The position numbers and the translations under genes were made by a program. Source: an uncultured SAR86 cluster bacterium (GTDB lineage Bacteria; Pseudomonadota; Gammaproteobacteria; Magnimaribacterales; D2472). From it: a stretch of 64,000 bases of DNA. The notes under the pieces were generated by a model, which saw only the letters and a list, made by a program, of their open reading frames with translations, was not told the DNA's origin and made no database searches. Shown here in pieces: positions 55,901 to 59,404 of this stretch; positions within the stretch are counted from its first letter, which is position 1, and every line of letters begins with the position of its first letter. The DNA is taken from assembly GCA_902557965.1 (NCBI GenBank), contig CACECK010000002.1, positions 1 to 64,000 of the forward strand, given 5' to 3'.

Positions 55901-56096
55901 TTGCAATGAGTCTAGACGTATCGCCTGGTGATGCACCATCAAGAAATACAGATACTGTTATGAAAGGAAGTTGAACATTTGGTGATGCTGCAACAGGAAT
56001 TTCTTGTCTGGCATATGTACCAGCTATGATCACCATAAAGGCAACCAATAGAGTTGTTTTTGCTTTTTTTATTGCAAAGTCAATTATTTTTATCAT
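52986..56096 (-). CDS. RND-family efflux transporter, AcrB-like permease
   Basis: 1036 aa; SVFLDGASPGDTSRLIARPLE, LVMMGLLLGMGMLIDGSIVITE, GISIVTLAGIVVNNNIVLID. Confidence 0.94.
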   Translation of the reverse strand: MIKIIDFAIKKAKTTLLVAFMVIIAGTYARQEIPVAASPNVQLPFITVSVFLDGASPGDTSRLIARPLENRLKTVTGVESIRSTSYLSYARVFLEFEVGFDIDQALVDVKQGVEEIKYQLPLEAEDPQIQEYSEASFPVMNISIVGGSSVRQKVFYARELKEQIEPIEQILEVRMTGAPEEVLEGVIDKAKMESYGVTLSDIYYSVSNNNLIIPGGNQDTGRGSFNIEVPSIIESAKDVYAIPVKVTKDAIVTLGDIATIKRTFKDFTSYARVNGQDAVTLEISLRESANAIDASDAIRERLLSFEKELPKNLKIVVSNDDTIYASLMVKELNGNIIAAVILIMVLVIASMGPRVSMLVGLSIPFCFLMTYLILYSLDMEVNFLVMMGLLLGMGMLIDGSIVITEYADKKIAEGLSRVEGYTLASKRMFYPIIASTGTTLAAFIPMMFWPGFTGQFMKYLPITIFFVLSASLFYSLIVIPVLGSYFGQKESALNNDDGHTSIFVKLTEWYGKYIKRFVNNPIETVTAVVSVLLIIIMSYSISGMGTIYFAIVDPIQANITVKARGNLSALETKEIIEQVEERFLKVEGIKNVYLRSGTNWWQSGADRIGGGFIETLEPSQTKISGFEIMDRLKESTKDLPGISVEVEADEGGPSFDSPIELDVYGDTEEQVNTAVTLIENYMRTGMAGLNNIFSSKAYPSVEWSVEVDKQKAAQLGVSVSDVGALVQMLTNGFKVGEYRPDDAKDEVEIRARFPDSDRTITGVRDLNVVTRQGTVPVSSFVNVVPKENRQTINRKNGKYFQELGAGTLDESEVSKKINELDNWLASTYLGPGITYQFSGMAEETEEVNNFIIVAGITAVFMMLLMLITQFNSFYQSFIILSAVTISFVGVLLGLLITGKSFSTTMTGISIVTLAGIVVNNNIVLIDTFNKLKDESPQIEKSIHIINACKQRLRPIILTSLTTIFGLMPLAMGISVDVISRDIVVGSRVVDWWSNLAVSIVWGLGFSTFITLILTPAVLALPYALRERYKKILPNTN

Positions 56097-56971
56097 ATGG
56101 GGTTAGTAATAACCTCTTGACCATCTTCAACAAAACCTTGGCCTTGAATAATTATTTCTACATTTTCTGCAATCCCTGTTACCCATAATCCTTCTTCAGA
56201 ATCCTCTAAAATTACTATCTCTACAAAATTCGCGAGATTCCCATCAGTTACTATTCTTATACCTAATTTACCCTCATCATTTAAAAGTAAAATTGATGGA
56301 GATATTTTGTGAGCTTTTACACTATCAATCTCAATGCTTATTTCAGCTGTAAGACCGTCTTTTATCAACCCTTCAGGATTATCTATTTGTGATTCGACAC
56401 TAAAAGTTCTTGTATCAGGTGATGCACTTTTTGAAACAAAAGTTAGCTTACCCTCAATTTTTTGCCCAGTTACTAAATCAACAAATACATTTTGATTTAC
56501 ACGAACTTTATTAATATCGTATTCAGGGACGCCAGCGATTAAAGAGATCGGATTTAACTGAATTATAGTTGCACATACTTGTCCTCTTTCAAGAAAATTT
56601 CCTGGTTTTACAATCTGTTCAATGTAGCCAGAAAAAGGAGCCTTAACTTCAGTTCTATTTAGTTCCACAATACCTAAACTACATAAGACAGTATCTTTCT
56701 CAACAAAATTACCTTGTGTTGCGCCTATATTTACGACTTCACCAGAAGTTTTTGCTTTTACGTTAATCCTTTTTTCTGATTTGGTTGTGGCTTTAAGTTT
56801 AATGTAAGGCTGATATTTGGTAGCTTTACTGAGAAGGGTTTGAACACTGAATAATTCATTAGATTCTTTAATTTGTTCTGGTTCATCATTTTTAAAAAAG
56901 CCAGAGACCATCCATAAAAGAATTGGAATTAATATATACAACGATAATCTGATATTTTGTGTTAACTTCAT
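56093..56971 (-). CDS. RND efflux periplasmic adaptor (membrane fusion protein)
   Basis: 292 aa; barrel-sandwich TEVKAPFSGYIEQIVKPGNFLERGQVCATI; overlaps the RND gene. Confidence 0.88.
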   Translation of the reverse strand: MKLTQNIRLSLYILIPILLWMVSGFFKNDEPEQIKESNELFSVQTLLSKATKYQPYIKLKATTKSEKRINVKAKTSGEVVNIGATQGNFVEKDTVLCSLGIVELNRTEVKAPFSGYIEQIVKPGNFLERGQVCATIIQLNPISLIAGVPEYDINKVRVNQNVFVDLVTGQKIEGKLTFVSKSASPDTRTFSVESQIDNPEGLIKDGLTAEISIEIDSVKAHKISPSILLLNDEGKLGIRIVTDGNLANFVEIVILEDSEEGLWVTGIAENVEIIIQGQGFVEDGQEVITNPI

Positions 56972-57015: not shown

Positions 57016-57597
57016 TTATACTTTGTGCTTTTGTCTTAGCTTTTCAAATAGATCTTTGTTTAGCGGCTTTCTATTTTTAAGATTTGCATTATCTTCAATT
57101 TCAAAAATTTTTCCATTAATCGCTTCAATTTTTAGAGAATTAAAAACTTTTTTAAAGGTATTAAAATTTTCATTTGAATTTTTTTCATTTATTTGATTCC
57201 ATCCAACACTTTTACCAGCATAGTAAACGATAGGGTGAGACCAGCTATAACTTTTTCTTGGTTGATATGATTTTCTTGCTTCGATATAAGCTTCTTCAAC
57301 AGTTGGAAAGCCATCTATTTTATTGATTTCAATACATGCTTTCATTAAATCCGTTAATGTAGGAAGATAAGATTGAGTGGAAATTACATTTTCAACTGCT
57401 TCAAGAATTACATTAGGTGATTGTTCTTTCAAGCTAAGAGCCCAAAGTTTTTTACCTTCTTTTAATTTTTCATCAGTACCAAAAACCTTATAAAATTGAT
57501 AGTGATAGGCAAGCTCAAGTTTCAAAAATAAAGCATCGATTGAGGTTATAAACTCCTCTTTAGTCGAGGTTGATTTCTTTTGCCCAAGTGTTGTCAT
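57016..57597 (-). CDS. Phage lambda P-like (helicase-loader-like) protein
   Basis: ORF to 57660; start chosen at MTTLGQKK (57597; GAGA upstream). Resembles the replication protein P family: FYKVFGTDEKLKEGKKLWALSLKEQSPNVILEAVENVISTQSYLPTLTDLMKACIE and SYSWSHPIVYYAGKSVGW. Confidence 0.55.
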   Translation of the reverse strand: MTTLGQKKSTSTKEEFITSIDALFLKLELAYHYQFYKVFGTDEKLKEGKKLWALSLKEQSPNVILEAVENVISTQSYLPTLTDLMKACIEINKIDGFPTVEEAYIEARKSYQPRKSYSWSHPIVYYAGKSVGWNQINEKNSNENFNTFKKVFNSLKIEAINGKIFEIEDNANLKNRKPLNKDLFEKLRQKHKV

Positions 57598-58351
57598 TTT
57601 TTCTCGTTTTGAAGTCTTGTTTATACTTTCCTGGTTCAGAATACTTTTTATCTTCTTCATTATTGCCTATATTACTATTCAATATATGACGCCTTTTAAC
57701 ATGATCAATAAATTTTGAATTCCATGTTGTGAACGCCGCGCCTTTATCTTTCCAATAAAGAATGAATTCGCTAAGGTATTTTAACGCAGAGTCTTTTGTT
57801 ATCTCCGATAAATTTAGAATATCAAATACATCATCATCTGGATACCAGTTTTCATCAATCATATGAGGAACACTCTTATTGGAATTTGATTCTTTTGCCC
57901 ACTCACGTCTTATAAAATCAATAAAAGTTGAATTCCAATTATTTTTTTGTTGACCTCTTTCAATCCAATAAATTTTAAATTCTTTTAACTTTAAAGAAAC
58001 AAATTCTTCTGGCATTTTTGTCATTGCAATTACTTCATATGTTTCGTTTGATGGCATCCAGTTATCAGACAATGAATTAGATTCTATATTTTTTGAAGCA
58101 GACCTTACTGAGAAATTTTGTTCTTTATCATCGCCATTTACTTTAATAAATTTATATTTAACTAGTTTGTCTACTGATGACTTTATTGTTTCAGCTGAAA
58201 GATATGTAGCATTTTCTTTTATCGCATTAAAAAGATCATCGTACGAATTATTATTAAGAATATTTTTATTGTATAAATCAAGAATCACTGCGGATTCTAA
58301 TCCAAGAGTTTCAGCAACTTCTTCTGAAAAAGATATTTTTTTATCTCCCAA
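57560..58351 (-). CDS. Primosomal DnaT-like protein with two tandem DnaT-type domains
   Basis: 263 aa; N-terminal winged-helix-like region, then DNWMPSNETYEVI...LKEFKIYWIERGQQKNNWNSTFIDFIRREW and ENWYPDDDVFDIL...LSEFILYWKDKGAAFTTWNSKFIDHVKRRH. Confidence 0.6.
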   Translation of the reverse strand: MGDKKISFSEEVAETLGLESAVILDLYNKNILNNNSYDDLFNAIKENATYLSAETIKSSVDKLVKYKFIKVNGDDKEQNFSVRSASKNIESNSLSDNWMPSNETYEVIAMTKMPEEFVSLKLKEFKIYWIERGQQKNNWNSTFIDFIRREWAKESNSNKSVPHMIDENWYPDDDVFDILNLSEITKDSALKYLSEFILYWKDKGAAFTTWNSKFIDHVKRRHILNSNIGNNEEDKKYSEPGKYKQDFKTRKNDNTWAKEINLD

Positions 58352-59404
58352 CTATTTTTTACCTCTTCTTTTTTCAACTGCTGAATTAAGTTGATCAAGA
58401 CAGTTAAGAGTATCGTCCCAGCCCATGCATGCATCAGTAATGCTTTGACCATATTTGAGCTTGTCAGATATCTTCTGATTTCCTTCGTTGAGATGACTTT
58501 CTATCATAACGCCTTTGATGTTTGAATTACCATTTTGAACTTGCTTAGCAATAGATCCTACAACTGGAATTTGCTCTTTATATTTCTTTTGGCTATTTCC
58601 ATGACTGGCATCTATCATTATTGATTCATTAACTTCAGCTTCTTTTAGGGCTGTTAGCGTGCTTTCAACAGATTCTTCATTATAATTTGGAACTTTTCCA
58701 CCTCGCAAAATAATGTGCGCGTCATTGTTACCTGCAGTTTTTAACATTGCAATGTCTGCTTCTTTAGTAGCCCCAAGAAATACATGTGAATGATTAGCGG
58801 CTTGAATACCATCTATGGCTGCTTTTAAACCACCATTAGTTGCGTTTTTTATCCCAATTGGACATGACAAGCCTGAAGCTAATTCTCTGTGAATCTGACT
58901 TTCAGCTGTTCTAGCACCAATAGCCCCCCATGAAATTACATCAGTAACGTACTGTGGCGAAATTGGATCAAGAAATTCTGTGCCAGCAGGTAATCCAATA
59001 TTTGCTATATCAACTAATAATTTCCTAGCTATTTCAACACCTTTTGCAATATTGAATGTTTCGTTTATATCTGGATCATTAATTAAACCTTTCCATCCAA
59101 CAGTGGTTCGAGGCTTTTCGAAATATACCCTCATTATTAAAAGTAGATTTTGGCTATATTTTTTGCTCTCAATTGCAAGCTTTTCTGCGTACTCAATAGC
59201 ACTTTCTGGATCATGTATAGAACAAGGGCCAACTACAACAAATAGCCTGTCATCTTTATCATGCAAAATTTGACTTACTTCATTTCTTGTTCCATAAACA
59301 AGTTTTGAAATCTCTTCATTAATCGGATATTCATTAACAAGCTCGTAGGGTGCAGGAACTTTTCTACGGTCTATTATTCTTGTATTGTCTGTTGAATAGT
59401 TCAT
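58352..59404 (-). CDS. aroG: 3-deoxy-7-phosphoheptulonate (DAHP) synthase, class I
   Basis: 350 aa; VVGPCSIHDPESAIEYAEKL, RVYFEKPRTTVGWKGLINDP. Confidence 0.97.
   Translation of the reverse strand: MNYSTDNTRIIDRRKVPAPYELVNEYPINEEISKLVYGTRNEVSQILHDKDDRLFVVVGPCSIHDPESAIEYAEKLAIESKKYSQNLLLIMRVYFEKPRTTVGWKGLINDPDINETFNIAKGVEIARKLLVDIANIGLPAGTEFLDPISPQYVTDVISWGAIGARTAESQIHRELASGLSCPIGIKNATNGGLKAAIDGIQAANHSHVFLGATKEADIAMLKTAGNNDAHIILRGGKVPNYNEESVESTLTALKEAEVNESIMIDASHGNSQKKYKEQIPVVGSIAKQVQNGNSNIKGVMIESHLNEGNQKISDKLKYGQSITDACMGWDDTLNCLDQLNSAVEKRRGKK

Follow-up and report, generated by a model that had tools for sequence, protein, structure and literature searches.

DopC and DopE were reportedly described by Brezellec in 2017 as domesticated initiator and lambda-P genes in genomes that lack dciA and dnaC/I. 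The original prediction for the locus studied here, that lambda-type genes had already been proposed as domesticated elsewhere, refers to this DopC/DopE proposal, and the idea is not new. For the SPP1 loader G39P, Bailey is said to have found in 2003 that removal of the last 14 residues abolished helicase binding. In bacteria with neither DnaC nor DciA, helicase loading has to our knowledge been addressed by prediction and not yet by biochemistry. SAR86 bacteria are among the most abundant in the ocean. DopE has been named as a loader family (PMC13326638), and genomes lacking both loaders have been called an open question (PMC5109545). DnaC and DciA dock via short helices on the same linker-helix/docking-helix (LH-DH) site of DnaB (PMC9912922). 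In lambda P, the lysine at residue 229 cross-links to the DnaB residues 167, 175 and 373; the last visible part of the chain was modelled, tentatively, beside the linker helix of DnaB (PMC6391071). On ssDNA, the C-terminal domains of DnaT assemble into filaments in which each interface holds two nucleotides (PMC13377028).

We analysed a window of 64,000 nucleotides from an uncultured SAR86 bacterium; scans that included named genomes also placed the host in SAR86. The gene pair of the window is a typical representative of the DopC/DopE group; what is new is a DopC that carries a DopE-type tail where DopE is missing, found in sister families outside the window. In comparison with the published system, the pair and the inferred role are the same. 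However, the SAR86 pair adjoins aroG and not ettA/glyA, its DopC contains two DnaT domains as against three in many other members, and there are SAR86 sister families without DopE that have the DopE-type tail on DopC.

The dopC/dopE locus in SAR86

Two overlapping minus-strand genes between aroG and an RND locus had been predicted, and the open reading frames agree. The dopC gene (57560..58351, minus strand) encodes 263 amino acid residues and starts with a TTG adjoining the stop of aroG, the DAHP synthase gene (58352..59404, minus strand). The dopE gene (57016..57660, minus strand) encodes a lambda-P-type helicase loader of 214 residues and starts with an ATG inside dopC; the two genes share 101 bp in different frames (57560..57660, minus strand). 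The start of dopE is probably the ATG at 57660, because the overlapping amino-terminal MKKIKxxL is kept as MQKIKPLL in distant orthologues. Downstream lies the gene of an RND membrane-fusion protein (MFP; 56093..56971, minus strand). Both neighbours are conserved in SAR86, where the order is aroG-dopC-dopE-RND (MFP/permease). Compared with close relatives, the dN/dS ratios were 0.17-0.23 for dopC and 0.06-0.19 for dopE, and therefore the pair of reading frames is not a chance product; judged by these ratios, both genes are under purifying selection.

The DnaT-repeat gene dopC was present in 90 of 100 SAR86 relatives, and DopE in 13/13 genomes of family f3 and 55/60 of family f1 among the genomes listed, own genome included. 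In the relatives, the pair beside aroG was syntenic and not sporadic. Seven relatives without the DnaT-repeat gene were checked, and an aroG match was also absent in all of them (0/7), which makes it more likely that a whole stretch is missing or was deleted than that dopC alone was lost. Three f4 genomes (G068, G077 and G083) had neither a DnaT gene nor an aroG match. Their locus was probably deleted or is missing from the assembly; G068, 93% complete, consists of one contig, and a real loss is possible.

Orthologous pairs were found across SAR86 and also in Pseudohongiella, OM182 and other Pseudomonadales. The non-SAR86 pair loci that we read lie mostly between ettA and glycerate kinase/glyA, have three DnaT domains per DopC and, in some genomes, have dopC unlinked from dopE. 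At three loci (L109, L122 and L126) DopE had no adjoining dopC, and a DnaT-repeat DopC was encoded elsewhere in the same genomes. The non-SAR86 distribution was taken from a search of 32 genomes. A class sample was unfit for reading the distribution in Pseudomonadales, because the DopE profile matched only 12 of its 274 genomes and six of these carriers also had DciA and look like carriers of a prophage P.

The phage ancestry of the pair is clear: P-like and DnaT-type initiators are encoded by Pseudomonas and Stenotrophomonas phages. The two genes might therefore be what remains of a lambdoid phage, with no function in the cell. We consider this hardly credible and rejected it on synteny and selection, since the pair is syntenic across the order, is retained in very small genomes and is under purifying selection, and distant orthologues share another fixed locus, from ettA to glycerate kinase/glyA. 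In addition, no phage genes were seen among the open reading frames listed around the pair. The pair is chromosomal, syntenic, resident and outside any prophage, in line with the prediction of a fixed chromosomal locus.

Kinship of DopE with lambda P and of DopC with DnaT

DopE matched the Pfam family Phage_lambda_P (PF06992) with 27.2 bits, which for the window copy alone is barely above the cut-off of 26 bits, and PHROG 109, 'P-like helicase loader', with an E-value of 1e-13. PF06992 was found in 49/50 DopE orthologues. The DopE profile matched lambda P in the PDB (E 3e-6) over the lambda-P residues 24-227, tail included, and also matched SPP1 G39P, weakly. The AlphaFold model of DopE has a modest global confidence (mean pLDDT 77.6, pTM 0.49) and consists of a disordered N-terminus, helices at residues 32-181 and, beyond a linker, a final helix at 202-211 that is modelled with confidence. 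With Foldseek, the model matched lambda P bound to DnaB (9oa1) with an E-value of 2.5e-4 and G39P (1no1) with a TM score of 0.80 on the target and an rmsd of 2.0 A. The downstream gene, predicted to be lambda-P-like, is so by Pfam, PHROG, the profile match and the 9oa1 fold match.

Three regions were distinguished in DopE. The proximal helical domain (residues 32-115; 57316..57567, minus strand) is G39P-like and kept in the short DopE variants; PF11417 matched this domain in 5/50 orthologues. The distal lambda-P region (residues 121-181; 57118..57300, minus strand) has the motif WSHP..YY.GK..GW and is lost in the genus g6. The C-terminal tail PLNKDLFEKLRQKHKV (57019..57066, minus strand) contains the helix 202-211 and is the proposed DnaB-binding element. 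DopE and lambda P (8v9t, 9oa1) are alike in sequence profile and fold along almost their entire length, down to the C-terminal tail, but DopE is encoded by a resident chromosomal gene, is about 15% identical to lambda P in the fold alignment, has a partner with DnaT domains and occurs in short forms without the distal region. With G39P it shares the proximal helical domain and the arrangement of a domain, a flexible linker and a C-terminal helicase-binding tail, the latter being predicted in DopE, whereas most DopE members have the extra distal P region.

Two consecutive DnaT domains had been predicted in the upstream gene, and PF17948 matched DopC in two stretches (E 9e-35). The first DnaT domain is encoded at 57878..58075 (E 1.1e-17) and the second at 57689..57859 (E 1.5e-17), both on the minus strand. 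The DopC model, also of modest global confidence (mean pLDDT 77.2, pTM 0.35), matched the ssDNA-binding domain of DnaT (4ou6) with a probability of 0.99; the two proteins of the pair thus match the folds of DnaT and lambda P, respectively. The N-terminal domain (residues about 1-70; 58142..58351, minus strand) forms helices at 10-65 with pLDDT values of about 82-89. A winged-helix-like N-terminus had been proposed; the helical head appeared in the model, but the matches to winged-helix folds were weak. At the C-terminus, DopC has the motif NTWAKEINLD (57563..57595, minus strand), the form found alongside DopE, which is DRSWAE outside SAR86.

A descent of DopC from a phage initiator of the lambda O type is possible. 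DopC matched PHROG replication initiation families, among them PHROG 11233, a replication initiation protein, at residues 6-71 (E 0.0013); a direct match to lambda O was not found. Residues 1-257 of the Pseudohongiella DopC matched a Stenotrophomonas phage protein (E 4e-11), whereas the window DopC searched directly against phages gave no match. DopC and E. coli DnaT have the ssDNA-binding C-terminal domain in common (PF17948; 4ou6), but in DopC it occurs two or three times in tandem and the head looks different. Since DnaT assembles into filaments with two nucleotides per interface, the tandem domains may represent a ready-made, pre-built segment of such a filament.

Absence of DciA, the search for DnaC and the proposed loading function

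With the PF05258 profile, DciA was not found in the own genome, and profile searches detected it in 0/100 SAR86 genomes and, in a second scan, in 0/32 other DopE-bearing genomes. In the class sample, 221/274 genomes had DciA. A hidden DciA was rejected at the profile level for the own genome, the 100 relatives and the 32 distant DopE carriers. For DnaC, no DnaC-like gene was seen in SAR86 among the PF01695 matches listed. These were mostly frames of 430-485 amino acids, which are DnaA because in several single-contig genomes they lie at base ~500, or Lon-like frames of ~800 amino acids; a few weak matches below the cut-off were in frames of 230-320 amino acids. A Pfam scan of DopC and DopE showed neither an AAA+ domain of the DnaC/I type nor a PF05258 domain. 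The pair has the same inferred job as DciA and DnaC/DnaI, but its folds are unrelated to theirs.

The lack of dciA in the relatives and in the own genome, and of any DnaC-like gene seen, supports the prediction that the pair stands in for DciA or DnaC as the loader of DnaB. We regard it as likely that dopC and dopE form a resident helicase-loading module, derived from a phage initiator and lambda-P genes, that replaces DciA or DnaC in SAR86. The DnaT domains of DopC have their origin in the restart protein DnaT, which in E. coli works with PriA/PriB (PMC13377028), and the pair could instead belong to a preprimosome, as DnaT does, and assist PriA in reloading DnaB, while oriC uses an unrecognised loader or a self-loading DnaB. 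We think this improbable, since a P-type loader adjoins DopC, and DciA is missing in all these genomes with no DnaC seen, a complementarity expected of an initiation loader; moreover, restart and initiation roles can coexist. DopE could also serve chiefly in replication restart, or inhibit the helicase.

For a loading module, the following sequence of events is proposed, in which the binding of DnaB and of ssDNA, the DopC-DopE contact and the loading itself are predicted from sequence and by analogy. At the opened origin or at a restart site, the tandem DnaT domains of DopC would coat the ssDNA over a few nucleotides, acting as a covalently linked piece of a DnaT-type filament. DopE would join DopC and present its C-terminal helix on the flexible linker, and this helix, as the key DnaB-contact element, would dock on the LH-DH site. 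The DnaB ring would thereby be delivered and opened onto the ssDNA held by DopC. As SAR86 is abundant and has very small genomes, the pair would be a minimal natural example of helicase loading free of DnaC and DciA.

The C-terminal tail in families with and without DopE

The DopE tail reads LFEKLRKKHKV in f1, LKKKYL or LKEKHLI in f3 and RIAKLKKELGL outside SAR86. It aligns with AQALAKIAEIKAKFGL at the residues ~210-227 of lambda P, and the cross-linked residue 229 lies just past this stretch. In the families f2 and f4, DopE was found in 0/27 genomes, and an order-wide profile search detected none genome-wide. The only f2 match to the DopE profile, a 429-amino-acid frame with an E-value of 0.09, was taken as chance. 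Where DopE is absent, DopC ends in ...KLKEKHQI (f2) or ...LRNKYKI (f4). This tail was at the exact C-terminus of DopC in 13/13 f2 and 7/7 f4 genomes read and not in the DopC of f1 or f3.

The C-termini were scored with a C-terminus-anchored profile trained on DopE tails. The f2/f4 DopC C-termini gave 2.7-15.3 bits, with 23 of the 24 loci at 5.3 or more, where some loci are second copies of the same genome and the distinct genomes number about 12 in f2 and 7 in f4, to which an f2 fragment (L017) is added. The poor score of 2.7 came from the f4 member G065. DopC from families with DopE had a median of about -7.5 and a maximum of 1.7, one further f2 fragment aside. The median of 4677 other C-termini was -13.4, although a few unrelated ones reached 9-11.6 bits, and phage P proteins scored poorly.

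These few high scores, and a motif of about 12 residues and low complexity, would also fit a convergence of short basic helices, without any transferred or replaced loader tail. We consider convergence rather unlikely, since the tail occurs on DopC in exactly the two families without DopE, is absent from f1/f3 DopC and is placed precisely at the C-terminus in all f2 and f4 genomes read; this placement would argue for a function even if the likeness were convergent. Furthermore, the f2 DopC tail is closest to the f3 DopE tail (LKEKHxI) and the f4 DopC tail to that of f1 DopE (LRxKYKx). Short as the motif is, this likeness favours a passage of the tail from DopE to DopC within each lineage over chance; a de novo rebuilding on DopC is possible.

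The DnaB tree grouped the families as (f2,f3)|(f1,f4) with supports of 95/97 and 100/100, and an independent tree of AroG, MFP and RND gave the same grouping (100/100). The DopE-less families f2 and f4 are therefore not sisters, and the event occurred twice. Since the outgroups have DopE with the tail, the simplest history that the sequences allow is that DopE was lost twice independently, in each case with the tail on DopC. After the loss, the tail-ended DopC would both hold the ssDNA and bring DnaB, as a one-protein loader. There is about an even chance, in our estimate, that in lambda-P-type loaders the essential part for docking on DnaB is just the C-terminal helix, and that this helix was twice independently moved to, or rebuilt on, the ssDNA-binding partner, giving a non-AAA+, DciA-free loader in one protein (head, tandem DnaT and tail).

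The genus g6 of f1 points to the same element. In its DopE, the match to the model covers the proximal part alone, from position 8 to about 115, and the protein ends in LEKLRKKHxI; by its sequence, g6 has lost the distal half of the P domain and retained the tail. The g6 proteins that we read (L114 and L209) have 145-151 amino acids and consist of the proximal domain and the tail only, a G39P layout; eight genomes matched. Most or all of DopE was lost more than once with the tail spared, and this pattern points to a single short peptide as the DnaB contact. If so, what loaders of unrelated origin have in common would be the need for a short helix that fits the LH-DH site and is attached to a protein that binds ssDNA.

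Further arrangements were seen in two DciA-negative, non-SAR86 genomes. One (L172, genome G366) encodes a 397-amino-acid fusion protein that lacks DnaT domains and joins an initiator-like head to a proximal P domain and a tail, and the other (L170, genome G209) a short DopE of 170 amino acids near a DnaT-repeat DopC. In the DnaB proteins (loci L186-L204), the conserved tryptophan of the docking helix is lost in f1 and f3, which have DopE, and in the f4 member G065, and is kept in f2 and most of f4, where the tail is on DopC. A co-evolution of DnaB with its loader is possible from this pattern. The Stenotrophomonas phage Suso (L230:2983-3849) encodes an initiator with a head and DnaT, with no P gene annotated adjoining it, that ends in LSPDENRKRFAEAFALLK and looks similar to the DopE tail. 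This DopE-like end suggests that phages may also use the design of head, DnaT and docking tail.
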